This document shows positions 6,958-37,622 of a DNA stretch of 64,000 nucleotides, one piece after another. Position numbers and translations under genes: made by a program. Source of the stretch: Vampirovibrio chlorellavorus. GTDB taxonomy: Bacteria; Cyanobacteriota; Vampirovibrionia; Vampirovibrionales; Vampirovibrionaceae. Position 1 is the stretch's first letter. The number at the start of each line of letters is the position of its first letter. The DNA is taken from the NCBI GenBank assembly GCA_903866275.1, contig CAIPMU010000007.1:1-64000 (forward strand), read 5' to 3'. The notes beneath the pieces are model-generated. The model was not told the DNA's origin and searched no databases. It worked only from the letters and a program-made list of their open reading frames with translations.

Positions 6958-6975
6958 ACCATTTTATCATTGGAG

Positions 6976-7017: not shown

Positions 7018-7329
7018 ATGTTCTGACATCCTGCTGAAAGTTAAAACGCTACTCCCTGAAGCCTTTAAGCGGTTCGGAAAACTCTTATTTGGAAGCGTGC
7101 AGTCCCGGCAAGAAGCAGGGGTTTCACTCTCCACAGAAAACAATTCAAAACCTGAGGCCAATCCTCAACGGTTTTCCTTTCATCGACAACCCATTGTCCA
7201 ACCACCCCAAAGCATCTCAGACAATGCCTGCCATCACCCTGATCCCCAGTTGCCCCCGCTGGCCGATTTGTGTTTAGTAGATACATGATTATGCGAGCTG
7301 CACACTTGCCCCTTCAAAAGGCCAGTGCA
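7018..7329. other. Intergenic region upstream of mscL
   Basis: About 310 bases with no protein that I can support; the open frames here have no family resemblance and no ribosome-binding sites. I see no clear RNA structure. Confidence 0.4.
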
Positions 7330-7785: not shown

Positions 7786-7832
7786 CCTGACCCGACGACT
7801 CTCAGAAACCGTTTTTTCATAGGAACAGACTC

Positions 7833-8465
7833 ATGTCATCCACCTCCCCCGGTTTATTCATCACCTTTGAAGGCATTGACGGCTCCGGCAAATCCACCCA
7901 GATGGCCCTCTGCGCCGAAGCGTTGCAAGCCGCCGGATACTCGGTGATTAGCACCCGTAACCCTGGCGGCACCGACTTTGGACTGGAACTGCGGCAGATC
8001 CTGCTGCACTCCAAAGGGGCCGTTTTCCCGATGAGTGAACTCTTGCTGTTTATTGCCGATCGGGCGCAACACATGGATGAAGTGGTGTTTCCCGCCTTAC
8101 AAGTTGGGCAAATCGTCCTCTGCGACCGGCACATCGATTCCACGCTAGCCTATCAGGGCTACGGCCGAGGCTTGCCCCTGAGCACCATTCAGGACTTAAA
8201 CACCATTGCCCTGCAAGGCCATCCGCCAGATCTGACCCTGCTCTTTGACGGGGAACCCGAGCACCTGGCCCAACGCGTGAATCGTCGCGGGCCAGCGGAT
8301 CGCATGGAAGGGGAGAAAGCTGAGTTTCATCAGCGGGTGCGCGAGGGTTTTTTGGCCGTGGCGAAAGAGAATACTGAAAGAGTGCGGGTGTTGAATGCAT
8401 TGGATTCGATGGAAGCATTGCATGTGCAAGTGATGCGGATTGTTTTAGCGTTATTGAATGAGTGA
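7833..8465 (+). CDS. tmk: Thymidylate kinase
   Basis: A 210-aa dTMP kinase (dTMP + ATP to dTDP + ADP) for DNA precursor supply. P-loop FEGIDGSGKST lies near residues 12-22, the DRHIDSTLAYQGYGRGL segment contains the DRx(Y)xSS-type region, and a LID-like RRGPADRMEG segment follows near 150. ATG 7833 has AGGAACAGACTC upstream. The length is normal. It is convergent with the CDF-CorC fusion gene, with only 37 bases between the stops. Confidence 0.95.
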   Translation: MSSTSPGLFITFEGIDGSGKSTQMALCAEALQAAGYSVISTRNPGGTDFGLELRQILLHSKGAVFPMSELLLFIADRAQHMDEVVFPALQVGQIVLCDRHIDSTLAYQGYGRGLPLSTIQDLNTIALQGHPPDLTLLFDGEPEHLAQRVNRRGPADRMEGEKAEFHQRVREGFLAVAKENTERVRVLNALDSMEALHVQVMRIVLALLNE

Positions 8466-8502
8466 TTTCAGGCTGGCGGATTGGTTGTCAGTAGTCTTGC
8501 CC

Positions 8503-10404: not shown

Positions 10405-10603
10405 GAATCCGTGTAGTTTACTTCAAACGGTTCCGCTGTCCTGGTCAAAAAACAGCTTTATAAATTGGGTATCGGCCACACATCGAAAAACTTGAGCACT
10501 CAATTTTTCCGATCAACCAACCCAAGTTCTCATTATATCAAGCTTCCAAGGAAATAGCCCCTTTTTCCGGAACAGACTCGCCACCGGATACACCAAACCT
10601 GAT

Positions 10604-11029
10604 TTAACCCGACTCTGCGGCTTCAGGAGCAGGCTGAGCCTGCTCTGCAGGGGAAAGTGGCGGCGAAGCATCCATCACTGGCGGAGGCATGGATTCCGAC
10701 AAACTCATAGCAGACTCCTCCAGCACGTAAGGCTGAGGTGCCTCCACAACCGCCTGCGGTTTTTCCACCGGGGCTTTCGCAGAAACCTTCTTTTTTCGCT
10801 TACCCGTTGGCTTGGCCCAAATATCACCGATTATATATCCGATAAACCCGGCGGCAATGGCCCCACTCAGGCTCAAAAGCAGGGTTTCCAGCATTGCCAT
10901 CCCCGAAAACGTATCCGAGGCCATCTGGGTAAAGTCCTGGGGCTGAATCTGGCGGTAAAAACCAGGCAAAGCCGTCACCAGGAACACCGAAGTTCCACAC
11001 AGACCCGCCATTCTGACCGAGAGATTCAT
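10604..11029 (-). CDS. Hypothetical membrane protein next to flhA
   Basis: An unrecognised 141-aa protein with two hydrophobic segments (about residues 7-20 and 45-68), a basic patch KPTGKRKKK, then a Pro/Ala/Glu-rich tail that is probably disordered. ATG 11029 is preferred to the upstream start at 11101 because the extra N-terminal residues are polar and AAGGGAATGGG precedes 11029. It lies downstream of flhA on the same strand, 219 bases away, so it may be a late member of the flagellar transcript, but it resembles no flagellar protein that I know. Confidence 0.55.
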   Translation of the reverse strand: MNLSVRMAGLCGTSVFLVTALPGFYRQIQPQDFTQMASDTFSGMAMLETLLLSLSGAIAAGFIGYIIGDIWAKPTGKRKKKVSAKAPVEKPQAVVEAPQPYVLEESAMSLSESMPPPVMDASPPLSPAEQAQPAPEAAESG

Positions 11030-11247
11030 AACGACCCATTCCCTTTTTCTGGTTTCATCACTGGCAATGCTACAACCATTGAATTGGCTCTTACCCGTCA
11101 TCCATCGATTTAATTCATGCCTGAGACATTCAGCTATCTGACTTCATCATAAACAACCTGATTCAATAGCGGCTAGGGTTTAACCTTTCAAATCCTCCAT
11201 TCAATCGGGCATTCATTTCAAGGGCATGTTCTCCAACTAGATAAACA

Positions 11248-13365: not shown

Positions 13366-14510
13366 GCGTCACCGCCTTCTAACAGTTTTGAGCTGCGATT
13401 CTTTTTGGCCGCATGATCGGCGGCGCGCTTTTGGGCCGCCAGACGACGACCCTTATTGGTGGAAAACACAAAGGCCAGCACCTCGGCGACGGCCACAAAC
13501 AATTCAGGCGGAATCATGGCTTCCACTTCCACCACGGGATACAGCGAGCGGGCCAGGGGCTTGTTCTCCACCATCGGCACGTTATTTTCGCGGGCAATTT
13601 CTTTAATCTTTTGGGCGAAAATATCCTTGCCCTTGGCCACCACCACGGGGGCAGGCGCAATATCGGGATCATATTTCAGCGCAATGGCGTAGTGGGTCGG
13701 GTTAGTGATCACCACATCAGCCGTGGGCACGGCGGCCAACTGACGGGTTTTGGCCATCTTCATGCCCATCTGCTTGATGCGGCTTTTCATCATCGGATCC
13801 CCGTCCGAGTTGCGACGCTCGTCTTTAATATCCTGACGGCTCATGCGCAGTTGCTTTTCAAACTCCCAGGCCTGATACCGCCAATCGATCAAGCCCGCCA
13901 GCAAAAACAGAATGCAGGACCATTGGGCAATCTCACCCACCACCTTGAGAATAGCTACCCAGGCCACGGGCACTTCCAGCGCGCCCAGCGTCATCAGTTC
14001 CTGCCAATGATTATGAATAATGATGGAACCCGAGCCGCCGATAATGCTCATTTTCAGCAAAGCCTTGCCCACTTCCACCAGAGAACGGGTCGACCACAGG
14101 CGCTTGAACCCGTTCAGGGGATTAATTTTATCCAGCTTGGGAAAGATGGCCTGAATGGAGAACATGGGCCGCACCTGCACCAGATTGGACAGCACACCCG
14201 CCACCAACACGGTCAGCATCATGGGCATCATCAGGAACACCATCGATTGAATGGTGCTGGACATGAGCACGTTAAAATTATCGAGCGATAACGGCCGCAG
14301 GGCCACCGGACTGCTCAACACCTTGGTAAAGGTGTATTTCATCTGCCCGTACATGCTGGAAATAGTGTAGGGACCGGCATACGACATGATCCACGCAGCG
14401 GCCATCAGGGCCACGGCCCCGTTAAAATCGCTGCTTTTGGCCACCTGGCCTTTTTCTCGCGCATCGGAGTAGCGCTTGGCTGTTGGCTTTTCTGTTTTTT
14501 CACCGGCCAT
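13362..14510 (-). CDS. flhB: Flagellar export switch protein FlhB
   Basis: A 382-aa inner-membrane component of the flagellar export apparatus that switches substrate from rod/hook to filament proteins. The N-terminus has KTEKPTAKRYSDAREKGQVA, four membrane helices, then a cytosolic domain with the self-cleaving NPTH motif in VVITNPTHYAIALKY near residue 270. The basic C-terminal tail (RAADHAAKKNRSSK) is longer than usual. The upstream neighbour fliR ends 14 bases before its start, and flhA overlaps its end by 4 bases. Confidence 0.97.
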   Translation of the reverse strand: MAGEKTEKPTAKRYSDAREKGQVAKSSDFNGAVALMAAAWIMSYAGPYTISSMYGQMKYTFTKVLSSPVALRPLSLDNFNVLMSSTIQSMVFLMMPMMLTVLVAGVLSNLVQVRPMFSIQAIFPKLDKINPLNGFKRLWSTRSLVEVGKALLKMSIIGGSGSIIIHNHWQELMTLGALEVPVAWVAILKVVGEIAQWSCILFLLAGLIDWRYQAWEFEKQLRMSRQDIKDERRNSDGDPMMKSRIKQMGMKMAKTRQLAAVPTADVVITNPTHYAIALKYDPDIAPAPVVVAKGKDIFAQKIKEIARENNVPMVENKPLARSLYPVVEVEAMIPPELFVAVAEVLAFVFSTNKGRRLAAQKRAADHAAKKNRSSKLLEGGDA

Positions 14511-14524
14511 TTAGCACACCTCCG

Positions 14525-15310
14525 TCAGGTCTTGTACAGGCCCAGCAGGACCTGCACCAAATGCGCGTAATGATCGCCCAAGAGTGCCCCCAGATAGGGC
14601 AAGCCCACCAGAATGGCCAGCAAACCGATCAGCACTTTCAAGGGCATGGCCACCATAAACACGTTCATCTGGGGCATAACCTTGGCTACAAAGCTGAGGG
14701 CAATTTCGGTGGCCAGCAACAGCCCCATCAGCGGCGCGCCCACCACAAGCGACATGATAAACATATCGCTGGTCAGCTTGATAAACCGTTCCGCCATCAG
14801 TCCCCCGGTGAGTTGGCCTTCACCAATGAAATGCCCCAACGGGATAAAATTGAAACTGCGCTCCAGTCCCATAATCAGGCCATGATGAATGTTCAGGGAT
14901 AAAAAGAGCAGTGCGGCAAAGTAGAAGAAAAACTGTCCGACAATAGGCGACTGGGTCTGCGTGACTGGATCCAGCATGTTGGCCACCGATAGGCCCATCT
15001 GCATGCTGACGTATTCCCCGGCCATTTGCAGGGCCATAAAAATTAAATTGACGGTATAGCCCAATAACAACCCAATGATGGTTTCCTGAATGGCCATTAA
15101 GGCAAATTGAATGAGATCCTTGGGCACCACCAAATGAGTGGCATGCAACGGAAATAGAATCAAGGCAAAGCCTAGGGCCATGCCAATTTTGGCTTGAGAG
15201 GGGATATTGCGCATACTAAACAGCGGCGCGCTGAGCATCATACCGCTAATGCGAAACAGCACCAGCAGAAAGGCGATCACCACGTTCACGGTTAGCAGGC
15301 TTAAATCCAA
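14525..15310 (-). CDS. fliR: Flagellar export gate protein FliR
   Basis: A 261-aa protein with six predicted membrane helices, part of the FliPQR core that forms the export gate in the flagellar basal body. Conserved FliR features include FRISGMMLSAPLF near residue 20, a central AGEYVSMQMGLSVANMLDP stretch, and a C-terminal LGLLAILVGLPYLG-like helix. It starts 80 bases after fliQ ends and is followed by flhB after 14 bases. Confidence 0.95.
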   Translation of the reverse strand: MDLSLLTVNVVIAFLLVLFRISGMMLSAPLFSMRNIPSQAKIGMALGFALILFPLHATHLVVPKDLIQFALMAIQETIIGLLLGYTVNLIFMALQMAGEYVSMQMGLSVANMLDPVTQTQSPIVGQFFFYFAALLFLSLNIHHGLIMGLERSFNFIPLGHFIGEGQLTGGLMAERFIKLTSDMFIMSLVVGAPLMGLLLATEIALSFVAKVMPQMNVFMVAMPLKVLIGLLAILVGLPYLGALLGDHYAHLVQVLLGLYKT

Positions 15311-15390
15311 GCGGGGGGAATCTCCAGAATTAGGGCCGATTGAACGGCTTCATTTGAGCAATAACAACAGTTTGAGCTTTAAAAAACGGA

Positions 15391-15672
15391 TTATTTTTTG
15401 GGGGCTTGAGCCACTTCAATGAGTTGCGTAAACACGCGCTGAGAGTAGCCCACAATCATCTGGGTCATCCAGGGGCCAGCCAGCACCAGCACCAAAAAGG
15501 TGGCCAGCAGCTTGGGCACAAAGGTCAGGGTTGATTCCTGAATTTGCGTGACCGCCTGAAAGATGGAGATGGCCAGACCCACCACCAGATTGACGATCAG
15601 CAAGGGTGCGGACAGTAAAATCACCAGCCACACCGCATTTTGCAGTAAATCGATAAACGCCGCTTCGCTCAT
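15391..15672 (-). CDS. fliQ: Flagellar export gate protein FliQ
   Basis: A 93-aa protein with two hydrophobic hairpin helices, typical of FliQ. The sequence includes APLLIVNLVVGLAISIFQAV and TQIQESTLTFVPKLLA, the family hallmark, and GPWMTQMIVGYSQRVF at the end. It sits between fliP (15 bases upstream) and fliR, as in many flagellar operons. In the assembled gate four copies wrap the FliP/FliR core. Confidence 0.96.
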   Translation of the reverse strand: MSEAAFIDLLQNAVWLVILLSAPLLIVNLVVGLAISIFQAVTQIQESTLTFVPKLLATFLVLVLAGPWMTQMIVGYSQRVFTQLIEVAQAPKK

Positions 15673-15687
15673 GCGCGATCCTCTCTT

Positions 15688-16503
15688 CTAGCCAAAACCG
15701 GCTACCAGCGATTGTGAAATCAGATGCCAGCCATCCACCAGCACGAAAAGCACCAGCTTGAAGGGCAGCGAAATAGAGGTCGGCGGCAGGAAGAGCATCC
15801 CCATGGACACCAGAATGCTGGAGACCACCATATCGATAATCAAAAAGGGCAAAAAGATGATAAAGCCCAACTGAAACGCCGTTTTCAGCTCGCTGATGGT
15901 AAACGAGGGCAGCAACACGTAAGTTGGTACATCACCGCGATTTTTGGGCTTTTTCAGCTTGGCGAGACTCATGAACAGCTCCAGATCCTTGGGGGCGGTT
16001 TGCTTGAACATAAAGGTTCGCAGAGGGGTCATGGCCTTGGTCAGGGCGGCCTCCTGGGTCATCGCGCCGGTGAAGTAGGGCTTGAAAGCCTCACTATTCA
16101 TCTGGTTAAACGTGGGGGACATCACAAAGAAGGTCAGAATCAGGGATAGCCCAATAATCACCTGACTGGGTGGCAACTGGGGTGTGCCGATGGCTTGCCG
16201 CACCAGAGAGAGCACAATCACAATGCGGGTGAACGCCGTGCCCATGATGAGAATGGCCGGTGCCAGTGTCAGCACGGTCATCATCACCAGAATTTGCAGG
16301 CCCTTGCTCACTTCCTGCGGGTTGGTCGCCGAGCCCACTTTCACATCCAGCGTGGGCAAGCCCACTTCAGCCGCAGCATGCGGCATCCCCCACACGGCCA
16401 TGGCCAGACCCGCAAGGCCCAGCAGCACAAAAGCCACGCTTTTCCAGTTCGTCCCGTTCGCTGTCATCCACGCACGACGGGTTTGAATCCCTGTTCCCTG
16501 CAT
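15688..16503 (-). CDS. fliP: Flagellar export gate protein FliP
   Basis: A 271-aa inner-membrane protein, founder of the FliPQR export gate. The N-terminal extension (about 70 residues, with an hydrophobic signal-like helix and an AAAEVG segment that could be a cleavage region) precedes LTLAPAILIMGTAFTRIVIV, FVMSPTFNQMNSEA and the C-terminal LLPSFTISELKTAFQLGF and FLIIDMVVSSILVSMGM blocks of FliP. ATG 16503 is preceded by GGAG 8 bases away. That ribosome-binding site lies in the 3' arm of a long inverted repeat (16506-16553), so translation may be controlled by RNA folding. It is the first gene of the fliPQR-flhBA operon. Confidence 0.96.
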   Translation of the reverse strand: MQGTGIQTRRAWMTANGTNWKSVAFVLLGLAGLAMAVWGMPHAAAEVGLPTLDVKVGSATNPQEVSKGLQILVMMTVLTLAPAILIMGTAFTRIVIVLSLVRQAIGTPQLPPSQVIIGLSLILTFFVMSPTFNQMNSEAFKPYFTGAMTQEAALTKAMTPLRTFMFKQTAPKDLELFMSLAKLKKPKNRGDVPTYVLLPSFTISELKTAFQLGFIIFLPFLIIDMVVSSILVSMGMLFLPPTSISLPFKLVLFVLVDGWHLISQSLVAGFG

Positions 16504-22804: not shown

Positions 22805-23033
22805 GGGGAATGGCTGGGGTGTGATCTCGACTCGTTACATCCTATGATAGAACAAACACTTGAAGATGAGAGCTACCGATTCAAGAAGTCAAACCCGTGC
22901 GTTTGTTCACGCCACCCCAAAAACACCGGAGCTCCTGTCGCTATGCCACATGGAACAGAGCAGCGGCACTCAGTATCCTGATCATTCGGCAGGGATTCGT
23001 CTTGCCCCCGGCGCTTGTGATACAATGCCAGAC

Positions 23034-23702
23034 ATGTTTCATAGTCTCTACAACCGCACAGTCGGCACCCTGCCGCAACCGGTCACAGCACCAGGCAGCC
23101 CGACAGGCCATTCAGCTGATAAAGCCCTACTGCAATGGCCCGCCAACTATCTGGATGGCTTTCAGGCCTTTGACCCGGAACATTGGCAGTTGGAGGTTTT
23201 CGGCCTGGCCGATCGCCCCCAGACCTTCTCCTTGAAGGATCTGAACAGCTTTACACGCATCCAGCAGAACCGTCGTCTGGTCTTTGCCGATGGCTGGTCG
23301 TATCGTGCCCCGTGGGAAGGCTTTGTCTTGCAGGAGCTCCTGCACCGGGTCGCCCCGCGGCCTGAGGCCCAGTTTTTGATCCAGACCAATTTAGCCGGTC
23401 ATGTAGAGTGCATGCCCCTAAAAGAACTTTACGCCCAGCGTACACTGTTGTGCATGCGGATTGCAGGCAAACCGCTCAGTGCGCTGCACGGGGGGCCGCT
23501 GCGCTTAATGGTGTTTGACCGATACGCCCACAAAGGCTTGGGCCAAATTGTGAGACTGGAACTGAGTGAGACCGAAGTCCCCGGACATTTTGCCAGCAAG
23601 GGATATAATCCCGGCGCGCAAATTGAACCCGGCGATTACTATGCCGCTGATTTAAAAAGCGTGCAATCCATCAAGGCTCCCGGAGAAGTGACCCAATGGT
23701 AA
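23034..23702 (+). CDS. Molybdopterin-fold protein lacking the usual Mo-ligand Cys
   Basis: A 222-aa protein of the sulfite oxidase/YedY molybdopterin-binding fold, with family segments WQLEVFGLADRPQTFSLKDL near 51-70, DGWSYRAPWEGFVLQELL near 86-103 and YNPGAQIEPGDYYA near the end. In active members a Cys sits three residues before the G of the GWS motif; here that position is F84. The basic and aromatic pocket residues are partly kept. It may bind the cofactor without sulfite oxidase-type chemistry, or may be inactive. A TACAAT box ends 7 bases before ATG 23034, so the transcript may be leaderless; starts upstream to 22860 are open but less protein-like. Confidence 0.75.
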   Translation: MFHSLYNRTVGTLPQPVTAPGSPTGHSADKALLQWPANYLDGFQAFDPEHWQLEVFGLADRPQTFSLKDLNSFTRIQQNRRLVFADGWSYRAPWEGFVLQELLHRVAPRPEAQFLIQTNLAGHVECMPLKELYAQRTLLCMRIAGKPLSALHGGPLRLMVFDRYAHKGLGQIVRLELSETEVPGHFASKGYNPGAQIEPGDYYAADLKSVQSIKAPGEVTQW

Positions 23703-28220: not shown

Positions 28221-28541
28221 TTAGCCTTGAGCAGCTAGTGCCTTTGCCTTCTCAGCAGCCTTCTTGGACAAACGCTCTTTTTTAGCGACTTCCAAGGTGA
28301 TCAAGGCGCCATTTTCATCAGCTTTATTGATCAAGCGGAGCGCAGATTCAGTGGGCTGTGCACCTTTGCTGATCCAGTCGAGAGCCGCTTGCTTATCCAG
28401 CTTCAACTGCTTGCTCATAGGATTGTAGTATCCCAGCTCCATCAAGGGCGCCCCATCGCGACGGTTGCGAATATCAGTTACTACTATCCGGTAGAACGGG
28501 CTGTGCTTGCGACCAAGGCGCTTCAAGCGAATTTTAACCAT
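28221..28541 (-). CDS. rpsP: 30S ribosomal protein S16
   Basis: A 106-aa ribosomal protein of the small subunit. The N-terminus MVKIRLKRLGRKHSPFYRI is the family signature, then VTDIRNRRDG and ELGYYNPM near residues 20-42. The C-terminal ~25 residues are a Lys/Ala tail. ATG 28541 is chosen over the in-frame TTG 28571, because S16 proteins start at this Met. Unusually, no rimM, trmD or rplS gene follows; the downstream region is a terminator. Confidence 0.96.
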   Translation of the reverse strand: MVKIRLKRLGRKHSPFYRIVVTDIRNRRDGAPLMELGYYNPMSKQLKLDKQAALDWISKGAQPTESALRLINKADENGALITLEVAKKERLSKKAAEKAKALAAQG

Positions 28542-28611
28542 AGTAGAAGGGGATCTCCTTGATATTTTCAAATGGACACTCTTGTAGTGTACTTTGTAGC
28601 ATAAACATTTT

Positions 28612-29091
28612 TTATTTCAAAGCAGCTTTTTTCTGGTTCCATAAGGAATTCATGAAGACCAGGTTTCCAATCACCAAATAGGTCAGAAACAGAATGGCAA
28701 TAGAGCTGATCATCCAGGTGTGCTGGCCGTCACTGACAAAGCCCACGGTGTAAGCCTTGAAGTGCTCTGCCACAATAAGCCCGTAGATGGCCAGAACCAG
28801 CATGTAAACACCCAACAGACGCGGGGCCAAACAGATCAGGACGATAGCCATCAGGAACTCGGCAATGAGCAGCAGGCCATACAAGGGCCACACCACATCG
28901 GAGGCACTGAACGGGTTGTGCATCATGCCCGACAGGGTCAGGGGCAGGGCGCACATGATAATGAAAAATGTACCCGGAATGATGATCGGCCAGAACTCCT
29001 GGAAAAACCAGGTCGCCCGACCTTCGGGATTGCTGATGTCAAACTCCTGATGAGCGTGATGGCCCTCTGGGGGGCTGGATGAGTTACTCAT
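28612..29091 (-). CDS. Hypothetical four-helix membrane protein ending the respiratory operon
   Basis: A 159-aa protein with a His-rich N-terminus (EGHHAHQEF) and four hydrophobic helices (about residues 35-52, 64-88, 91-112, 126-150). I do not recognise a family. As the last gene of the minus-strand operon with cytochrome b, Rieske and oxidase genes it is probably an accessory membrane subunit. GAAGAGGAAC lies just upstream of its ATG. Confidence 0.65.
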   Translation of the reverse strand: MSNSSSPPEGHHAHQEFDISNPEGRATWFFQEFWPIIIPGTFFIIMCALPLTLSGMMHNPFSASDVVWPLYGLLLIAEFLMAIVLICLAPRLLGVYMLVLAIYGLIVAEHFKAYTVGFVSDGQHTWMISSIAILFLTYLVIGNLVFMNSLWNQKKAALK

Positions 29092-29109
29092 GTCAGCGCG
29101 TTCCTCTTC

Positions 29110-29220
29110 TTAGCTCTCTGCAATAATACCAAAGCTTGCAATCAATAATAACAGAGCGAAGTAGAAGAGGAAAAACCACACGTTCTTGATAAAAAGTGAA
29201 ATATCCTTACGTTCTTCCAT
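29110..29220 (-). CDS. Small single-helix membrane protein (36 aa)
   Basis: A 36-aa frame starting MEERKDISLFIKN, then one hydrophobic helix (VWFFLFYFALLLLIASFGII), ending AES. It fills the gap between the MvhD gene and the 159-aa membrane protein gene, and AGAGAGAGACTGAA precedes the ATG. Small single-helix subunits are usual in cbb3 and bc complexes, so it is a likely minor subunit. Confidence 0.6.
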   Translation of the reverse strand: MEERKDISLFIKNVWFFLFYFALLLLIASFGIIAES

Positions 29221-29232
29221 TTCAGTCTCTCT

Positions 29233-29655
29233 CTATGGCTTTGCGGCTACTTTGACTTCGGGAGCCGGCAGATTGCTGCAAACACCCACGAAATCATCCA
29301 CCATGACTTTCAGTTTGTCGTATTCCACAGCCGACAGCCAGTAGGCCTGCACCCGACGCTTATCCACCATGGGCTTCAGCTTGGGCATACGCTTGCCCAG
29401 CAGGCGTTCGCGACAAAACTTGTTGCCTTCCCGGTAATGGCAGTCGCCCATACGACATCCGACGGCAAAAGTACCAGCTGCGCCTTTTTTCAGGGCGGTT
29501 TCCAGCATAATGGGCTGAATTTGACCACTGCAAGGGACTTTAATGATTTTCACACCGGGATTATCCAGCAGATAGCCGCGATCATCCAGCTTGCCTTCAA
29601 AGTCCACGCTGCGCTCGCAGACGATGCCAATTAATGTTAAATTCGGTGTACTCAT
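29233..29655 (-). CDS. MvhD/FlpD-like iron-sulfur protein
   Basis: A 140-aa soluble protein of the methyl-viologen-reducing hydrogenase delta (MvhD) family, which carries a [2Fe-2S] cluster and passes electrons between flavin/heterodisulfide-type or hydrogenase partners. Conserved Cys are at 13, 42, 67 and 72, in KVPCSGQIQP and GCRMGDCHYREGN, the family hallmark. ATG 29655 is used; an upstream in-frame TTG at 29667 exists. The gene follows the cytochrome b-ferredoxin fusion in the same operon. No HdrA or hydrogenase gene is in the window. Its presence in an oxidase operon is unusual and suggests an electron wire into the cytochrome b-ferredoxin subunit. Confidence 0.85.
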   Translation of the reverse strand: MSTPNLTLIGIVCERSVDFEGKLDDRGYLLDNPGVKIIKVPCSGQIQPIMLETALKKGAAGTFAVGCRMGDCHYREGNKFCRERLLGKRMPKLKPMVDKRRVQAYWLSAVEYDKLKVMVDDFVGVCSNLPAPEVKVAAKP

Positions 29656-29688
29656 AATACAGTTCAATCCTTCTGGTGAAGTTCAAGA

Positions 29689-30849
29689 CTATAGGGTAGC
29701 GGCTGCCAGAGTGGCTTCAATCTCCGCGAGAACGGTGTTTGTATCGCGACGCGGGATTTCAATCGCCTTGAAGGCGCAAGCCCCCACGCACAAGCCACAG
29801 TTAGCGCAACGACCGGCGTCCACCACCGCCAGACGCTTGAACCGGGTGCCATCATTGCCGCGATCCACCATCGTGATGGCTTCATAAGGGCAATCATTGT
29901 AGCACAGGGAGCAGCCGGTACAGTTCTCGCGAGTCACCTGAGCATACTGACCACGCATGGCTTTCTTTTGTAAATAAGGCACCACCAGCAAGCCCAGCGG
30001 CACCGCCAACACCAGCAACAGCACCAGGATAGGGGAAATCCCTTGTGCGGCCAGATATTGGGGCCATGCATAGAGCAGATCGAAGTACACTTCAGAAGTC
30101 ACACTACCGGGGCCACTCAAGACGGGCACCGCGGCGTTCAAGCCTTTGGGAAGTTCTTCCAGGGTCACCGGCAACGCGGCGGAAGTGACAAACAAACCGC
30201 CCGCCATCATCAGAACCAGCGGCAACGGCGGCTCAGAAACCGGGCGCGTGATGCGCAAGTAGTGCATCCACAACATGAACATCATCAGGAGCGGGAAGCC
30301 TAGGTGCAGGAACATAAAGCGCGTCAGGGTGTAATCGGAGATCACTTGACCGGCCATCACAAAATTGGAGATCGACTCACCTACAAACGGAATACGCTTC
30401 AGCAGGTTAAAGGTGATATTGGCCAGAGTGACCGCTTCCTGATCCCAGATCAGCAGGTAACCGGTCAGGCCAATGGCAAATACAATGGCCAGCAGAACCA
30501 CCCCGGTGACCCAGGGCAAAATACGGTATTCCCGGTAACGATCAGTGAACCAGACCCGACACATGTGCAAAATGACGAAAATCATCATCCCATCACTGGC
30601 ATACCGGTGCAGCGAGCGGAACAGGTTGCCAAACGGGAGTTCATAGGTGATGTAATGCAAAGACGAATACGCCGTCGCCAAGGTGGGCTGATAGTAGGCG
30701 AACAGAATCAAGCCAGTGATAAACAGGGCCCAAATAAAGAAGTTCGGCAACGCCCCATGATAGTAAAACGGGTTGTACTTCTGGGAAAAGACGTTATTGA
30801 GTCCTCTTTCCAGCCAGAGTGTCGCTCTTTGAAACGGTTCGGTATACAC
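29689..30849 (-). CDS. Cytochrome b fused to a two-cluster ferredoxin
   Basis: A 386-aa protein. Residues ~35-205 form a four-helix cytochrome b core with both His pairs at the normal 14-residue spacing (H81/H95 and H182/H196), so it should hold two b hemes. More helices follow to ~290. The usual Qo PEWY motif is absent; SEVY at 252-255 is the nearest match. The C-terminus is a ferredoxin with two [4Fe-4S] motifs: Cys 310/313/316/320 (followed by Pro) and 348/351/354/358 (followed by Ala). GTG 30849 has AAGGAG 8 bases upstream. It probably links soluble low-potential carriers (MvhD is next door) to the quinone pool; that role is inference. Confidence 0.88.
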   Translation of the reverse strand: MYTEPFQRATLWLERGLNNVFSQKYNPFYYHGALPNFFIWALFITGLILFAYYQPTLATAYSSLHYITYELPFGNLFRSLHRYASDGMMIFVILHMCRVWFTDRYREYRILPWVTGVVLLAIVFAIGLTGYLLIWDQEAVTLANITFNLLKRIPFVGESISNFVMAGQVISDYTLTRFMFLHLGFPLLMMFMLWMHYLRITRPVSEPPLPLVLMMAGGLFVTSAALPVTLEELPKGLNAAVPVLSGPGSVTSEVYFDLLYAWPQYLAAQGISPILVLLLVLAVPLGLLVVPYLQKKAMRGQYAQVTRENCTGCSLCYNDCPYEAITMVDRGNDGTRFKRLAVVDAGRCANCGLCVGACAFKAIEIPRRDTNTVLAEIEATLAAATL

Positions 30850-30871
30850 GTCCGGGCTCCTTATCGCTCGT

Positions 30872-31159
30872 CTATTTCTTTAATTCCTGCTCGCCCAAAG
30901 TGGTCGAGATGTCTTCCTGGGCGCCGAGCAAAACAAATGAAATACTGACGGCCAACAAGATGGCACCGATGGCCAAACTATACTGAATGATCCCGGGCAA
31001 GACCTGCGCTTTAAACTGGTCACTCACAGCTTCATTGCTTGCCACGTTGCCCAAGACCACATGACCCTCGGCATTAAACATGACCACCAGTCCAGCCAAG
31101 GCAGAAAAGCCCAAAAGGACCGCCAAATAATCTTTCCAGGTTAAATCGCAACACTTCAT
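30872..31159 (-). CDS. Small two-helix membrane protein in respiratory operon
   Basis: A 95-aa protein with two hydrophobic helices (about residues 10-27 and 58-80) and a short polar loop between. No family is recognised. Its ATG overlaps the stop of the preceding 108-aa gene by 4 bases, and the cytochrome b-ferredoxin gene follows after 22 bases. Probably a minor subunit of the cytochrome b complex. Confidence 0.65.
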   Translation of the reverse strand: MKCCDLTWKDYLAVLLGFSALAGLVVMFNAEGHVVLGNVASNEAVSDQFKAQVLPGIIQYSLAIGAILLAVSISFVLLGAQEDISTTLGEQELKK

Positions 31160-31482
31160 TGAATCTCTTCCTTTTGTTCGAGGACTGCTTTCAGCAAAAA
31201 CCCTTTATTCAGCATCCACTCGAAAAAACGAATGGGTCGCTCCACACGCCCGCGCGCCTTTTCCAACACATAGCTGTCATAGATCAGAACCAGAACCACC
31301 TGACTCAGCAGCAGCAGAGCCACCAGCCAGATCAGCCCGTTGCTCCAGTTCGGCACCAGGGTGAATGCCTTAAAGGTCTGGAAGCAAAGCGACATGGTGA
31401 AAGAGGCAAGCAGAAAGCAGGCCCACCACATGCCCCGGCTGAGTGGTTTTCGAATCTGTGTTTCTTTACCCTGTAAGGCCAT
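31156..31482 (-). CDS. Small two-helix membrane protein in respiratory operon
   Basis: A 108-aa protein with two hydrophobic helices (about residues 18-35 and 48-68) and a basic C-terminal part (EKARGRVERPIRFFEWML). Not recognised. Its start overlaps the end of the large cytochrome b gene by 1 base (TAATG), and its stop overlaps the next gene by 4 bases, so expression is coupled. A structural subunit of the complex is likely. Confidence 0.65.
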   Translation of the reverse strand: MALQGKETQIRKPLSRGMWWACFLLASFTMSLCFQTFKAFTLVPNWSNGLIWLVALLLLSQVVLVLIYDSYVLEKARGRVERPIRFFEWMLNKGFLLKAVLEQKEEIQ

Positions 31483-32978
31483 TAGGCGCTGGCTCCTTCC
31501 AGAGAAAGGGCTTCACGTTCCATAGTGCGACGGCGATCCGCCCAAAACAGGAAACCGGCCACCAGCAACTGGGCCACCGAGAACCCGACCCAGAGCATGC
31601 TCCAGTAAAGGTTGGTGAAGTTGATGGATACGGCTGCGCCTTGCAGGCTGGCAATCCAGGCGGTGATAGTATGACCACCAAACGCGCCGCTCAACTTGGT
31701 ATTTTCCACAATCACGTGCCAGAAGCAGAAGTACCAGCCGCTGACCGTCAGGTTAAACAAGACCCAGAAAGTCATGGGGAAACGCTGTCTGTACATAGAC
31801 CAGTGCCAGAATTGACCAATGGTGATCATCATAATCATATGTGCAAACCAGTAAGGCGGATCGGTCTCAATGTTGGCCTTGTTGGCGATAATCAACATGG
31901 AGAAGACCACAAACTCAATGGCACCCATAATCCCAATGCAGGTAAACAAGGGACGGCGCAACCAATTGCGCTCCGAACCCCAATCCAGGAAGGTGAAGCC
32001 AATGGTCACAAAGGGAATGCCCAAGGTCCACAACGTTGCCCAATAGGGATCCATGTATTTCAACAACTGATACAAGGCCAGGAAGTACCAGTCCGATAGA
32101 ATCGGCAAGGGGGTGACTTCCGGGTTGGAACGCGTTCCGGATTCAGCGGGGAAGACCAGCGCTGTAAACAGAAACATGGCAATCAGCAGGAAAACCACGG
32201 GTTTTTTCAGGTTAATGCGCTTCATCCGGTTTTTGTAGAAGTAAATTTCAGAAAGCACCAGCAGAATCAACGACAATGCAAAGTGCAGGGAGTAGAACCG
32301 GGTCATAGTGGCTTGGCCGATCGAACTACCGCCCATCAGGATTTGGGAAGTGCTAAACCCTTGGTGGGTCAGATTACCCACCATAGCCGTACCCGCCCCA
32401 ATCAAGTTCGGGATCAGCCAGGAATTTTTGTAATGGGCGAAATCCCAGGGCCAAGACCAGTTCGCAGGTGTGATGTCCAGGTAAGTCGGGAAGGTAGCAA
32501 ATACCTTGGTTGCCCAAAACGCGCGCTGGTTCCAGATCAGCAGGTAACCGGTCAAGCCGGAGTACATGGCAATCACCAGCAACAAAATGGCCAAAATAAA
32601 GGTCAACTCGCCCTTGTTTTTGTATTCGGCGGTAAACCACATGCGATATACCCGCAAGGTGGCGGCAATGATCATGGCATCGCCGCTATACTTGTGCGCG
32701 CCCCGCAAGAGAGACCCCAACGCCACATGGGACAAGACATCCACGGAATTGAACGCTTGTGCGGTCGTCGGCAAATAAATCGCAATTAAAATCACGCCGG
32801 TGAATAGCACGATCATCCAGGCGAGATAATACATCCCACCGAGTTGATACCAGGGCGAATCCGCCTGTAAATCGGTCTTGGTTTCATCGAAGAGATCAAT
32901 CTTCTGAATCCGGTCCTTAACCCAAGTCACCGCCTGATTGGGCAGAGATTTCAAATCGAATGAGTTGGTAGCAGCCAT
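31482..32978 (-). CDS. Cytochrome b of a bc-type complex, one heme pair missing
   Basis: A 498-aa cytochrome b with a full set of membrane helices and extra C-terminal helices. The Qo-site motif is SDWY at 295-298 (PEWY in most homologues), and GYLLIWNQ near 144-151 matches the GYLLPWDQ segment. One His pair is present (H95 and H232, corresponding to the heme bL ligands). The partners 14 residues on are R109 and Y246, where heme bH ligands normally lie, so by eye only one b heme should be held here. It directly adjoins the Rieske gene (no base between). The second cytochrome b in this operon keeps all four His and may supply the missing center. Confidence 0.87.
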   Translation of the reverse strand: MAATNSFDLKSLPNQAVTWVKDRIQKIDLFDETKTDLQADSPWYQLGGMYYLAWMIVLFTGVILIAIYLPTTAQAFNSVDVLSHVALGSLLRGAHKYSGDAMIIAATLRVYRMWFTAEYKNKGELTFILAILLLVIAMYSGLTGYLLIWNQRAFWATKVFATFPTYLDITPANWSWPWDFAHYKNSWLIPNLIGAGTAMVGNLTHQGFSTSQILMGGSSIGQATMTRFYSLHFALSLILLVLSEIYFYKNRMKRINLKKPVVFLLIAMFLFTALVFPAESGTRSNPEVTPLPILSDWYFLALYQLLKYMDPYWATLWTLGIPFVTIGFTFLDWGSERNWLRRPLFTCIGIMGAIEFVVFSMLIIANKANIETDPPYWFAHMIMMITIGQFWHWSMYRQRFPMTFWVLFNLTVSGWYFCFWHVIVENTKLSGAFGGHTITAWIASLQGAAVSINFTNLYWSMLWVGFSVAQLLVAGFLFWADRRRTMEREALSLEGASA

Positions 32979-33629
32979 CTATGCAATCCCTCCCGCCTCA
33001 AGCGCGGTAATCACCAATTGGGTATCTTTAATCTCGTAGGTAAACTGCCGGGGCGGGCGAGGAGCAGGGCCGCTCACCACTTTACCGGGCAGCATCTTGC
33101 CATTCACATCCTGTGATTGCAGCGGATCGTACACACTCAAGTGACACGGGCAGGCAAACAACGGATTTTTGGCCGTGGGATAGTTGTAAGCAGCGGCCTC
33201 AGCGGGATCGGGCAGGAAGTTAAACACGCAGCCCATGTGCGGACAAATGCGGCTGACCACGATGAAATCGGGCTTGCCATTTTTGTCTTCAGGGAGGCGG
33301 ACCACAAAGCCGGGAATTTTACTGGCCTGAAAATGCTTAAAGGTGTATTCCTTGCTTTTCTGACTGAAAGTAAACGGCTGATACGACCACGGAGAAGGAA
33401 AATCCGCCACACTGAAGGAGACTTGGCGATCCGCCTGAGGCATATCCGGCGGCGCAACCAGACCTGACTTGCCTTTCCAGTCTGTAATCACCCCTTTGGT
33501 ATCCCAACTGGTGGTTTTCAACGGGCCAGAAGAAGGGCGCAAATAGCGAAACAAGGGGCTCACAAAGAGAGCCAAGGCACCCAGAACGGGAACACTGACA
33601 ATCAGTTTGAGAAAATCGCGACGGTTCAT
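32979..33629 (-). CDS. Rieske [2Fe-2S] protein
   Basis: A 216-aa Rieske subunit of the quinol-cytochrome c reductase. It has a twin-Arg N-terminus (MNRRDFLKL) followed by a single membrane anchor (about residues 9-27). The cluster motifs are C129-x-H131-xx-C134 (CPHMGC) and C160-x-C162-H163 (CPCH). The insert between the two motifs is longer than in many homologues. It passes electrons from quinol to the c-type cytochromes. Its ATG overlaps the cytochrome c gene stop by 4 bases, and the cytochrome b gene follows with no gap. Confidence 0.93.
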   Translation of the reverse strand: MNRRDFLKLIVSVPVLGALALFVSPLFRYLRPSSGPLKTTSWDTKGVITDWKGKSGLVAPPDMPQADRQVSFSVADFPSPWSYQPFTFSQKSKEYTFKHFQASKIPGFVVRLPEDKNGKPDFIVVSRICPHMGCVFNFLPDPAEAAAYNYPTAKNPLFACPCHLSVYDPLQSQDVNGKMLPGKVVSGPAPRPPRQFTYEIKDTQLVITALEAGGIA

Positions 33630-34765
33630 TCAGCTTTTCTCCCTTCTTTCACAGACGGGTTGGGGCCTGCGTTGACATGAATCATCGGCACCACGGAAGG
33701 GCCGCCCACATGCACCATGCCGCCGGTAATGGGATCAGCGGGAGGAATGACATAGGTCTGACCTTTGTTGGGGCCATTATTTTGCATGGCGGCAGTCCAG
33801 GGGCGATTGGTGGCAGCAGGCTTGCAGGCATCAATCATCGATAAGCCAGCCGGCGGTGTTTTCACTTCAGGCAAATCCGGAGTCAGGTCATTGGTATAAG
33901 CCAGTGAACGCACATGACGCACCAAATTACTGAGCAGAATTTCATCAAAAACATAGGTCACTTTGTGAGTGGTTTTATCCACATTGACATTACCGTACCA
34001 GGCGGGCATCGCAGAAGGATAAATCCCTTCGCAGAGATACTTGAAGAGTTGGGCATCTGTGCGGTTGTAAACCCGGTTGTACTGCAGAAAATTAGCGGGT
34101 GCAGGCATCAGGTTATGCACCTGCGGCGCATCATGCAGCTCGTGGTTTCCTGTTTTTCCGGTATAGAGATAACCATCGCCCTGACCTTTTTTACCGTGAC
34201 AAACCGCGCAGTTTCCACCAAAAATGGACGCTACATCGGTCGTACCGGCAGGCTTGATATCTCCAGCACCGGCCAGATAACGAGTGTAGAAAATCACAGC
34301 CCAGCGGTCATCCCGACTTAAGGCAGGCTCTGTGGCGTTACCCAGACGGTAAGCCGGGTGCTTCAGCGGCAAAAGTTGACGGCGCTGTGCATTGGGCATC
34401 GTCAATTCCGGCGCATGGCCTGTGGTTAGCAACAGGTAACTATCAATCGGCGTGGTATAAGCCAGATCGTGTTTCACTTTATCGGTTTGCCAAAAGGAGG
34501 CCGCATGGCATTTCACACAGGTGGACTGAAACACTTCACGGCCACGCATTAACGAGGGAGGCTGGGAAGGAAATGCAAAATCCTGCTCACTCAGCTTCAC
34601 GTCAACAACAGGCTCAGTCAAAATAGCTGCTTTGGTATTACTAAGTTCAGTGCCTTCGCCTGAACAACCACTAATAAGAGGCATTACAGCCACAGCGGCA
34701 GTCAACGCCAGAACGCTGGCCCAAGGAGCCCTGCGAACAGTCTGCTTTTTAGAAGAGAAGTCCAT
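33626..34765 (-). CDS. Diheme cytochrome c lipoprotein
   Basis: A 379-aa exported cytochrome c. A signal peptide ends in a lipobox (LISGCSGE near residues 29-36), so the protein should be lipid-anchored. Two CxxCH heme sites are seen: CVKCH near 83-87 and CAVCH near 183-187 (the latter in an NCAVCHGKKGQGDG context). ATG 34765 is preferred (AGAAGG upstream); an in-frame TTG lies 9 bases earlier. It sits between cbb3 oxidase genes and the Rieske gene, and so is placed to carry electrons from the bc part to the oxidase, as cytochrome c1 does in other bacteria. Confidence 0.88.
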   Translation of the reverse strand: MDFSSKKQTVRRAPWASVLALTAAVAVMPLISGCSGEGTELSNTKAAILTEPVVDVKLSEQDFAFPSQPPSLMRGREVFQSTCVKCHAASFWQTDKVKHDLAYTTPIDSYLLLTTGHAPELTMPNAQRRQLLPLKHPAYRLGNATEPALSRDDRWAVIFYTRYLAGAGDIKPAGTTDVASIFGGNCAVCHGKKGQGDGYLYTGKTGNHELHDAPQVHNLMPAPANFLQYNRVYNRTDAQLFKYLCEGIYPSAMPAWYGNVNVDKTTHKVTYVFDEILLSNLVRHVRSLAYTNDLTPDLPEVKTPPAGLSMIDACKPAATNRPWTAAMQNNGPNKGQTYVIPPADPITGGMVHVGGPSVVPMIHVNAGPNPSVKEGRKAE

Positions 34766-34783
34766 GAGTATCAAACCTTCTGA

Positions 34784-34936
34784 TTAATATCCGAAAAGTG
34801 GAATCCAGGAGATGGAGGCCCAGCTCACAATCACAATGAAGAAGAGCCACAGGAACCAGGGCACCTTGTGCTCACCGACTTCAAATTCGTCGTAGGCTTT
34901 CTCATCCGAATCCATATTGTTTAAATCTTCAGCCAT
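34784..34936 (-). CDS. Small CcoP N-terminus-like membrane protein (50 aa)
   Basis: A 50-aa frame too short for most gene finders. It begins MAEDLNNMDSDEKAYDEF, then GEHKVPWFLWLFFIVIVS, and ends with a second short hydrophobic stretch and FGY. The H-x-VPW-x-LWLFF segment resembles the N-terminal membrane helix of CcoP in cbb3 oxidases, although no heme c domain follows. Since a second heme domain is fused to CcoO here, this may be the detached CcoP anchor. It lies between ccoS and the cytochrome c gene. Confidence 0.65.
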   Translation of the reverse strand: MAEDLNNMDSDEKAYDEFEVGEHKVPWFLWLFFIVIVSWASISWIPLFGY

Positions 34937-34969
34937 GGGTCAATGTTCCGTTCTCATTCATCATGCTCA

Positions 34970-35140
34970 TTAATCGTTATCGTGCAGCATACGAAACTTG
35001 GAATCTTCCAGATCCTCCAGCTTGCCACTGCGAGAGGCCCACATCATGGCCCCAAAGGCAAGGACAAAGAAAAGAATGCAGATGGCAAACGCGGCCATGT
35101 AACCAGGACCGATACCGCCAGACAGACAAGACGGGCACAT
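34970..35140 (-). CDS. ccoS: cbb3 oxidase assembly protein CcoS
   Basis: A 56-aa protein with one membrane helix (AAFAICILFFVLAFGAMMW) followed by ASRSGKLEDLEDSKFRML and an acidic end (HDND). The W-A-x-RSG-x-x-x-DLE pattern is the CcoS hallmark. CcoS is needed to insert heme and copper into CcoN. ATG 35140 is chosen because it starts 2 bases after the ccoO stop; the frame upstream is open but overlaps ccoO. A Cys pair near the start (CPSC) is unusual for this family. Confidence 0.8.
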   Translation of the reverse strand: MCPSCLSGGIGPGYMAAFAICILFFVLAFGAMMWASRSGKLEDLEDSKFRMLHDND

Positions 35141-35141
35141 A

Positions 35142-36176
35142 CTAGTGTCTTCCACCTCCATAAATGTAAGGGCTGGACGCGTGCAGTTCACTCAGCTTTT
35201 CAATTTCATTGTAGTTGGCGCTCATCGGTTCAGGCTGATCCAATTGGCTATATTGGGTCACTTCCACCTTGGAGGAAGCCTGAGAGCCATCCGTCGGCAA
35301 GGTTTTGAGAAACGCCACCAGATAACCCATTTGCTGTTCGCTCAGCGTACGGCCCCAACGCGGCATACGGGTACCCGCCACACCTTCTTTAACACGCCAG
35401 TACCATAGGGCATCGGTATAAGCGCCGTAGAAGGAACGGGTAAAGTTGGCCGGTTTTTTAATCATGGAGGAACTCATCGGGCCATTACCGCGACCGGTTA
35501 CACCGTGACAGGTCGAGCAGTTCTGCATGTAAATACCACGACCCGAGTTGGCGTTTGCCGAGTTGTCGGGATCGACGTTTTTAGAAACACGCTTCCACTC
35601 ATCACGAAGCTCCTGAGGAGCTTCCAGCCAGGTGATAGGAGTCTTGACGGCCCCTTCTTCCGCACCGGCTTTTTCGTTGATATGCGGCGCGCGACGACGA
35701 GCGTTCAACTCACGCTCACGACCCAGCGTTTGCAAGTAAGCAATCAGGTCGCGCATGTCGTCATCCGACAGATAACTGAAAGACGGCATAACTGAACCGG
35801 GCTTAACCGAACGAGGCTGCATCACGTGCGCCCAATGCCAGGCATCCGGGTACTTGCCACCCACGTTGGACAGATCCGGACCCGTCCGTTCAGTACCCAA
35901 CAGGTGAGGCGTTTCGTTGACGTAGTCACCGGCCTCTACCATTTCGCCCATTTCACGGTCCTGGTAGCGAACAAACTGAGTATGACAATACACACAGCCT
36001 TCTCGCTTGTAGACTTCGCGGCCATGCCGCTCCTGAGCGTTATAGCCGTGGGCCGCCGCCGTGGCAACCGGCTGGAACGTGGTTGCTGGCAGGATCATGG
36101 TTACGAACACAATCGTGAGGAAGATGAGGGCCACAAAGACAGCGGCAATCAGATAGTTGAGGATTCTATGTTGCAT
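35142..36176 (-). CDS. ccoO: CcoO with a fused second cytochrome c domain (CcoO-P)
   Basis: A 344-aa membrane-anchored cytochrome c subunit of cbb3 oxidase. An N-terminal helix (about residues 8-30) is followed by the CcoO domain: REGCVYCHTQFVR with heme C61-H65, then DLSNVGGKYPDAWHWAHV and MPSF. From about residue 205 a second monoheme domain starts (NCSTCHGVTGRGNGP, heme C220-H224; RMPRWG as Met ligand region). In most bacteria the second domain belongs to CcoP, so this looks like a CcoO-CcoP fusion with one fewer heme. It lies between ccoN and ccoS. Confidence 0.9.
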   Translation of the reverse strand: MQHRILNYLIAAVFVALIFLTIVFVTMILPATTFQPVATAAAHGYNAQERHGREVYKREGCVYCHTQFVRYQDREMGEMVEAGDYVNETPHLLGTERTGPDLSNVGGKYPDAWHWAHVMQPRSVKPGSVMPSFSYLSDDDMRDLIAYLQTLGRERELNARRRAPHINEKAGAEEGAVKTPITWLEAPQELRDEWKRVSKNVDPDNSANANSGRGIYMQNCSTCHGVTGRGNGPMSSSMIKKPANFTRSFYGAYTDALWYWRVKEGVAGTRMPRWGRTLSEQQMGYLVAFLKTLPTDGSQASSKVEVTQYSQLDQPEPMSANYNEIEKLSELHASSPYIYGGGRH

Positions 36177-36215
36177 CGTATCGTCTTCTTTCCTTAATAG
36201 TCCTTGTGAGCGCCA

Positions 36216-37622
36216 TTAAACGTAAGCAATACCGGTCGGCGATTCGGGAAGCGCCTCGCCCTCTTTCGAGAAAACCGTTTTGTAGACGTTCAGCATATAC
36301 AACACTTGACCGGCCACCAGCAGTATCCCGGAGAAGAAACGCACCAGGAAGTATGGCTGCATCTCCATGACCCACTGATCATAAGGCAGAGTGAAGTGCC
36401 AGCCGGCAGCCTGAATCAGGCCAGCCATCGTCAGAGAGATCATCATCACAATCCAGCCGATAAAGCTCAGCCAGAAGTGCCAGATCGCCAATGAGCGACT
36501 GTACATTTTGCGCCCGGTGATTTTGGGAATAATGAAGTAGGAGGCCGCAAACACAATAAACGAGAACGTAGCCAGCAACGCCAAATGCGCGTGACCCACC
36601 ACCCAGTTGGAGAAGTGCAGGTACCAGTTGATACTACGAGTCGCCTGGAAAGGACCCTGAATACATGTGAGCAGGTACGCCAAACCCGCCGCCATCGCAA
36701 AGCGCATGGGAATGTGATCCGCCATCAGGTGCCACTTCCCCTTGAGGGTCATAAAGAAGTTGGTTTGCACAGTCAATACAGGAATCAGCAGGAACACACT
36801 GGAAATAACAGCAATGGCCTTCAACCACTCCGGCACCGGAGATTGCAGGATGTGGTGAGTACCTGTCGGCGCGTAAAACATACCAATCGTCCAGAAACCG
36901 ATCATGGACAAGGTGTGGCTGTAGAGCGGGTTGCCGGAAAACCGGGGCAGCAGGTAATACAAGATACCCACACCGCCCACAGTGAACCACATACCGAGAA
37001 TGTTGTGACCATAGAACCAGCCCGCAATGGCATCATTCAAACCCGTGAACTGCACAAAGGCACGGTTACCCACCACATACACAATCGGGAACCAGAACAG
37101 GGCGCCCATGAAGTACCACAGGCTGACATACCATTTTTTCTCGGTGCCCGTGAAAATAGTCGCGTACACGTTAATGCCGACCAAAATCAACGCCAAAAGC
37201 ACCATCCAGTCAAACGGCCCGTTCAACTCGGCATACTCACGCCCCTCGGTGTAGCCGTTCATAATAGACCACACCCCCAGAATCACAGTCAGGTTCCAGG
37301 CAAACAGGGTAATATTACCCAAGCGCTCGCTCCACAGGCTTTTTCGGCCAGAGAGAACCGGCACAATGTAGAACATGCAAGAGACATAGCCCATCGACAA
37401 CCAGCCAATCAGAATGGTGTTGATGTGTGCCGGGCGCAGACGGCCAAAGGCCAACTGGGGAATGCCATGAATAATATCAGGCGAAGACATCAGTAACGCG
37501 GCGACCAACCCAAAAAGCATACCTGCAACCAGATAAAAAATGGCGCAAATCAGGAAATTTCGGCTGGCGCTAAAGGGTTCGTCGCTGAATGCGGCACGCC
37601 AGATATTGGTAAGGGCTTGCAT
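36216..37622 (-). CDS. ccoN: cbb3 cytochrome c oxidase subunit I (CcoN)
   Basis: A 468-aa membrane subunit of C-family heme-copper oxidase, which reduces O2 to water at a heme b3-CuB site. Family features: RPAHINTILIGWLSMG (low-spin heme His, near residue 64), WFYGHNILGMWF, APTGTHHILQSPVPEW (CuB His pair, near 252-267), and SNWVVGHAHLALL (b-heme His ligands, near 341-353). It starts the long respiratory operon, with CCTCCTGGAG upstream of ATG 37622. The oxidase type is known for high O2 affinity. A palindrome lies 100 bases upstream and may be a control site. Confidence 0.95.
   Translation of the reverse strand: MQALTNIWRAAFSDEPFSASRNFLICAIFYLVAGMLFGLVAALLMSSPDIIHGIPQLAFGRLRPAHINTILIGWLSMGYVSCMFYIVPVLSGRKSLWSERLGNITLFAWNLTVILGVWSIMNGYTEGREYAELNGPFDWMVLLALILVGINVYATIFTGTEKKWYVSLWYFMGALFWFPIVYVVGNRAFVQFTGLNDAIAGWFYGHNILGMWFTVGGVGILYYLLPRFSGNPLYSHTLSMIGFWTIGMFYAPTGTHHILQSPVPEWLKAIAVISSVFLLIPVLTVQTNFFMTLKGKWHLMADHIPMRFAMAAGLAYLLTCIQGPFQATRSINWYLHFSNWVVGHAHLALLATFSFIVFAASYFIIPKITGRKMYSRSLAIWHFWLSFIGWIVMMISLTMAGLIQAAGWHFTLPYDQWVMEMQPYFLVRFFSGILLVAGQVLYMLNVYKTVFSKEGEALPESPTGIAYV

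Follow-up and report, generated by a model that had tools for sequence, protein, structure and literature searches.

Whether electrons must pass from one half of a bc complex to the other has been a matter of dispute for decades, with tests in engineered mutants. In photosynthesis, an open question is whether ferredoxin can directly feed the side of a b6f-like complex at which quinone is reduced. In bc1, heme bL of the other half is the only cofactor within range (14 Å), and in engineered cross-inactivated dimers the transfer between the two bL hemes was fast enough for catalysis (PMC4330944). A route from ferredoxin into b6f has been postulated for ferredoxin-dependent cyclic electron transfer (PMC9342900). 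Fe-S wiring on the negative side of the membrane to a cytosolic redox partner has been proposed for the Rieske/cytochrome b complex of Kuenenia, which is described as a homodimer of b6 and subunit IV with an FAD/NAD(P) protein and a multiheme cytochrome c (PMC12954380). In HdrA2 and HdrABC-MvhAGD, a 2x[4Fe-4S] ferredoxin is followed by MvhD. Finally, a complex III/IV of Melainabacteria, in which a C-type oxygen reductase is accompanied by petB and petC, is very probably encoded by the same operon as the one analysed here; its subunits were named b6f, and neither FlpD nor missing bH ligands are mentioned in the searched part of that text (PMC6349859).

Our operon lies at about 28612-37622 on the minus strand of the window, by which we mean the whole stretch of 64,000 nucleotides of Vampirovibrio chlorellavorus DNA that was analysed (contig 7 of a genome of about 3 Mb, with Vampirovibrio as close relatives). 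With bc1 and b6f it shares a Rieske protein, the cytochrome b fold, bis-His b-hemes, a variant of the Qo motif (SDWY for PEWY) and c-hemes. Unlike them, it encodes two different cytochromes b, one of which (b1) lacks the bH ligands while its partner (CytbFd) carries a ferredoxin, together with an FlpD protein, and all this is set in a cbb3 operon. The parts are known but the architecture appears to be undescribed, and the apparently bL-only cytochrome b is its most surprising element. According to the original prediction, no standard bc complex of this kind is known, which holds within what we searched: the open-access literature yielded no text on a ferredoxin fusion with FlpD or on absent bH ligands, and neither a naturally occurring cytochrome b without bH ligands nor the function of the fusion was found described there.

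The genes are listed in Table 1. From the Rieske gene through to FlpD, neighbouring genes either overlap or stand no more than about 33 bp apart. Both CcoN and CcoO of a cbb3-type oxygen reductase are present, and CcoP was not recognised in the operon. Promoter-like sites were no more frequent than in shuffled sequences, and none was seen between CytbFd and FlpD. It is therefore unlikely, given also the gap of only about 33 bp between the two genes, that the MvhD-type gene is expressed separately, which would have spoken against the original prediction. The four-helix protein encoded after FlpD is perhaps a further member of the operon. The gene for ribosomal protein S16 (28221-28571, same strand) was found directly downstream of the respiratory operon.

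Table 1. Genes of the respiratory operon in their order from CcoN (37622) to FlpD (29233), followed by the gene downstream of FlpD.
Feature	Coordinates	Strand	Evidence or remarks
CcoN, catalytic subunit of cbb3-type (C-family) oxygen reductase	36216..37622	minus	COX1 E 4.7e-84; among named models ccoN fits best, but scores under its curated cut-off
CcoO (FixO) with fused C-terminal cytochrome c domain (CVYCH, CSTCH)	35142..36176	minus	FixO E 1.8e-35
56-aa single-helix ORF between CcoO and diheme cytochrome	34970..35140	minus	no family match; CcoS/CcoQ-like as judged by eye
50-aa single-helix ORF, same interval between CcoO and diheme cytochrome	34784..34936	minus	no family match
Diheme cytochrome c, 382 aa (CVKCH, CAVCH)	33626..34774	minus	sequence scan
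Rieske [2Fe-2S] protein, motif CPHMGC...CPCHLSVY	32979..33629	minus	sequence scan
Cytochrome b1, 498 aa	31482..32978	minus	bL ligands H95/H232; R109 and Y246 at bH positions; Qo motif TPLPILSDWYFL
Small membrane protein, 108 aa, between both cytochromes b	31156..31482	minus	weak conservation across class
Small two-helix membrane protein, 95 aa, directly before CytbFd	30872..31159	minus	sequence scan
CytbFd (cytochrome b2), 386 aa, GTG start	29689..30849	minus	Pfam and alignments
FlpD/MvhD-type [2Fe-2S] protein, 140 aa from ATG (probable start)	29233..29655	minus	PF02662
Membrane protein of 159 aa with four helices, after FlpD	28612..29091	minus	close relatives only; membership uncertain

To see how widely this arrangement is conserved, we looked at 58 related genomes of the class Vampirovibrionia. 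The full-length fusion occurs in 38 of them (42-82% identity in the relatives), so it is not an assembly artefact, and FlpD is present as a single copy adjoining the fusion in exactly the same 38 genomes and absent from the other 20. The complete operon could be read in 31 genomes, and in 31/31 the order was identical: CcoN, CcoO-c, diheme cytochrome c, Rieske, b1, small membrane proteins and, at the end, CytbFd and FlpD. The co-occurrence that had been proposed as a check was thus observed, although the related genomes share kinship and are not independent trials; they span several families, with CytbFd identity down to about 42%. Among the lineages without the fusion is the large family f6, which we take to be probably the gut Gastranaerophilales. 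In a sample of 292 genomes of the phylum, drawn evenly and with few aerobic members, the fusion was found in Vampirovibrionia only.

What is known of the spread outside Cyanobacteriota comes from a pair of MAGs and a single entry in a published table. In the two proteobacterial MAGs, L044 and L045 (orders Rhodospirillales and Cellvibrionales), a single chain of 525 aa comprises cytochrome b, dicluster ferredoxin and FlpD, and the gene adjoins heme-copper oxidase subunits. That nature has joined all three modules in one protein speaks for a single electron path through them. The table entry is a Chloroflexi protein, RME88945.1, for which the domains given are cytochrome b6 (PRK03735), Fe-S and FlpD; by this domain listing, it is apparently the same triple fusion (PMC8756737). 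Two further candidates, L046 and L047, were set aside as they matched through the ferredoxin part only. When a tree was built from the heme domains, b1 and CytbFd fell together with the triple fusions into one clade of paralogues against the canonical cytochromes b (support 100/99), and within it CytbFd grouped with the triple fusions (99/94); long branches meet here, so the exact order is less certain. In L045, the triple fusion lies inside a denitrification/oxidase cluster (1768-16456) with NosR-like, cytochrome cd1, NOR-like COX1, CoxA/CoxB and CtaA proteins.

The first part of the original prediction, a 386-aa cytochrome b with a C-terminal two-[4Fe-4S] ferredoxin, was borne out by Pfam and by the conserved cysteines. 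The Cytochrome_B domain covers residues 22-200 of CytbFd (E 4.7e-35), and the closest solved structure to this domain is cytochrome b6 (2zt9, E 2e-32). The b6-like four-helix heme domain is followed by two more helices and then by the dicluster ferredoxin at about 303-365 (Fer4_21, E 6.5e-10; Fer4_7, E 1.1e-9). All four heme histidines, H81, H95, H182 and H196, are invariant in 33/33 sequences. The cluster cysteines C310/313/316/320 and C348/351/354/358 are also invariant in the alignment, except for C320, which is Tyr in one sequence. The Qo motif of CytbFd is degenerate: the Asp is retained, but the sequence reads FDLLYAWP in the order to which the window belongs, and other families have DWFYLW. 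The b6 cysteine for covalent attachment of heme cn, a mark of b6f, is absent from CytbFd, where the Cys-free NPFYYHGA aligns with NIFYCLGG of b6. Because hydropathy and homology give six helices, and the loop charges alternate as expected from the positive-inside rule, the predicted topology is one in which the ferredoxin, starting about 20 residues past the last helix, is cytoplasmic and on the heme-bH side. An AlphaFold model of CytbFd made with 13 sequences had a pLDDT of 52.5, too low for the model to be of use.

Similarly, the claim that an MvhD-type gene lies next to the fusion proved correct. FlpD matches PF02662 with E 1.7e-21 (76.9 bits, against a gathering score of 22.3), and its solved relatives are MvhD-type subunits. 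The ATG at 29655 is probably its start, rather than the listed TTG at 29667 (144 aa), because it agrees with the start in the relatives. Four cysteines are invariant, 17, 46, 71 and 76 in the 144-aa numbering, a number sufficient for a single [2Fe-2S] cluster; where methanogen MvhD has a CxxC, this FlpD has its second Cys replaced. The HdrA2 profile matched the ferredoxin and FlpD collinearly over 570-771, and matched the single-chain protein of L045 over 571-772. Because of this collinear match and the MvhD-type relatives of FlpD, the predicted wire resembles the electron-entry module of HdrA2 mounted on a cytochrome b. The order of the modules is the one known from HdrA2 and HdrABC-MvhAGD, but here there is no flavin domain, no HdrB/C and no hydrogenase, and the module sits on a cytochrome b.

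It seems very probable from these features that the Fe-S module is wired to heme bH. We also considered that the ferredoxin-FlpD module might sense redox state or regulate the oxidase and conduct no electrons. No soluble partner gene was seen among the ten operon proteins scanned, which would suit a sensor, but the cluster cysteines are complete and conserved and their wire-like order matches HdrA2, a member of a conductor family, so this reading appears highly improbable. That FlpD serves an HdrA or a hydrogenase encoded elsewhere was rejected, as family searches found neither a full HdrA nor a NiFe hydrogenase in the genome. The original interpretation of the module as a wire from cytosolic low-potential carriers is well supported, as far as the b-hemes of the membrane, by the topology, the cysteines and the collinearity with HdrA2; what it missed was the apparent loss of heme bH from b1.

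In b1, the bL histidines H95 and H232 are kept in 31/31 sequences, and no other His is invariant. Both bH histidines are gone: position 109 is Arg in 24 sequences and Lys in 7, and position 246 is Tyr in all 31. The canonical cytochromes b of the class have all four histidines (10/10), whereas b1 has the bL pair only, and the four-His set of a bc1/b6f-type cytochrome b is found only when b1 and CytbFd are taken together. The glycines near bL are invariant, but the helix-C glycine that packs bH is relaxed (A/G/S/C); on the bH side, helix A has kept its glycine. The Qo motif TPLPILSDWYFL, with Asp for the Glu of PEWY, is invariant in 31/31, and the Rieske protein has the cluster motifs CPH[ML]GC and CPCH of bc1/b6f Rieske proteins in as many. 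The conservation pattern leaves little doubt that b1 is without heme bH. An AlphaFold model of b1 made with 11 sequences had a pLDDT of 47.2, likewise too low to be of use. Arg/Lys109 and the invariant Glu244 lie where bH would be, and the empty site may be filled by an ion pair between them. The same genome has a second, canonical pair (L002, contig C18, about 62222-62803), consisting of a 192-aa Rieske protein and a 370-aa cytochrome b in which all four His are present.

Alternatively, b1 could bind bH through unusual ligands such as Lys/Arg109, Glu244 or Tyr246, so that both cytochromes b would be complete and form ordinary dimers. All three positions are strongly conserved, which would suit such ligands; position 109, however, is Arg in 24 of the 31 sequences, which is not a usual heme ligand, the Arg/Lys109-Glu244 pair looks like a site-filling one, and the glycine packing bH has been relaxed. 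We regard this explanation as very unlikely.

With b1 lacking bH, we appear to be dealing with two complementary, specialised cytochromes b rather than with a bc complex to which a wire has been added. Judged by the conserved residues, the losses are complementary, b1 having kept the quinol-oxidising half and CytbFd the heme pair across the membrane. For this reason we consider a b1:CytbFd heterodimer likely. We know of no route by which a b1 homodimer could dispose of its bL electron. As such a homodimer would strand the electron, and as bL-bL transfer is known to work, the heterodimer would explain the pattern without new chemistry. The engineered asymmetric bc1 of Rhodobacter likewise has a Qo half and a Qi half that are joined by bL-bL transfer only (PMC4330944), but that is a laboratory construct, whereas the asymmetry seen here appears natural and fixed.

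It could also be that the operon encodes two enzymes, a non-Q-cycling quinol oxidase made of b1, the Rieske protein, the cytochromes c and CcoNO, and a ferredoxin:menaquinone oxidoreductase made of CytbFd and FlpD. Near the triple fusions of the two MAGs, which lie next to oxidase or denitrification genes, no b1 or Rieske was recognised, and CytbFd-type proteins can therefore work without b1. The separate oxidase, however, with a homodimer of b1, would leave the bL electron stranded, in a cytochrome whose bL ligands and Qo motif do not vary, and the complementary losses in the two paralogues and their linkage in all 31 loci favour one complex. Two separate enzymes thus seem rather unlikely to us.

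In the heterodimer, the electrons could move as follows. The Qo site would be formed by b1 and the Rieske protein, with b1 holding heme bL alone. One electron of the quinol would pass from the Rieske protein through the diheme cytochrome c and the cytochrome c-bearing CcoO to CcoN and O2. The other would pass from bL of b1 to bL of CytbFd across the dimer interface and on to bH of CytbFd, which would be the sole bH of the dimer. FlpD, docked to the complex in the cytoplasm, would make up a chain of Fe-S clusters with the fused ferredoxin, running from 2Fe-2S through one 4Fe-4S to the other. Along this chain a cytosolic carrier of low potential would deliver electrons to bH and to menaquinone at a putative N-side site; the carrier is most likely the ferredoxin of 2-oxoacid:ferredoxin oxidoreductases. 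Electrons from the Q-cycle and from ferredoxin would then meet at bH of CytbFd, a built-in analogue of the ferredoxin-to-b6f cyclic route.

The gene content of the genome is consistent with such an input. Family searches found two POR-type 2-oxoacid:acceptor oxidoreductases but no NuoF, and neither the HdrA flavin subunit nor the hydrogenase of an Hdr/Mvh-type bifurcating complex; the best match to the HdrA2 profile was the ferredoxin plus FlpD of this operon. Because the two PORs are present while NuoF, a NiFe hydrogenase and a full HdrA were not found, ferredoxin is the likely cytosolic donor. NuoH with a NuoI-like ferredoxin nearby was found at about 72847-74396 of contig C2; complex I is probably fed by something other than NADH, and ferredoxin may already have an outlet via this NuoF-less complex I. 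As for the acceptor, a genome search gave two genes of the MqnA/D family, with MenD below the cut-off, which indicates that menaquinone is made by the futalosine route.

The net direction of the electrons is somewhat more probably inward. Transfer from ferredoxin to menaquinone, which is near -70 mV (PMC12954380), is downhill, and the opposite direction would need an unusually high potential of the Rieske protein; input is favoured for this reason. In the outward case, the same heterodimer would bifurcate quinol at Qo, driven by the Rieske protein and the oxidase, and the chain bL-bL-bH together with the Fe-S clusters would reduce ferredoxin or NAD(P)+. All the cofactors needed are present, and there is a proposed precedent in the anammox bacterium Kuenenia, where Rieske proteins of high potential have been measured (PMC12954380). 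Moreover, of the Ser/Tyr pair that raises the Rieske potential, Ser is kept in 31/31 sequences and Tyr in about two thirds. Menaquinone with a Rieske protein of the usual menaquinone type would, however, put bL at an estimated -0.25 to -0.3 V, too high for ferredoxin. Also, unlike in Kuenenia, no FAD/NAD(P) oxidoreductase subunit was found among the ten proteins; the operon has the HdrA-type ferredoxin and FlpD in place of a flavin subunit, and an apparent heterodimer in place of a homodimer. Outward flow is therefore judged unlikely.

Inward flow through the heterodimer remains our preferred reading. Taken in its general form, there is about an even chance that this is a natural heterodimeric bc complex in which b1 has no bH, every turnover passes over the bL-bL bridge, and a covalent ferredoxin is the point at which cytosolic low-potential electrons join (or leave) the Q-cycle. 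The more specific model, a fused complex III/IV with a heterodimeric b core and a ferredoxin input that meets the Q-cycle at one bH, is proposed more tentatively, and we place it slightly below even. If it is true, evolution would have made bL-bL crossing obligatory, and the question could be tested in a natural enzyme. For the feeding of b6f by ferredoxin, a b6-like protein with a covalently attached ferredoxin, from a class that is sister to the photosynthetic Cyanobacteria, would then be a direct structural model. The complex would be a hard-wired ferredoxin:quinone reductase within complex III in the sister lineage of oxygenic phototrophs, and it would explain how aerobic Vampirovibrionia in which no NuoF was detected might couple ferredoxin to O2.

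Two other genes in the window were noticed. A protein with a sulfite-oxidase-type molybdopterin domain is encoded at 22860-23702, apparently isolated from other molybdoenzyme genes. At 3004-4044 there is an LdpA-like Fe-S protein, whose family is named for the cyanobacterial clock, here in a non-photosynthetic relative.
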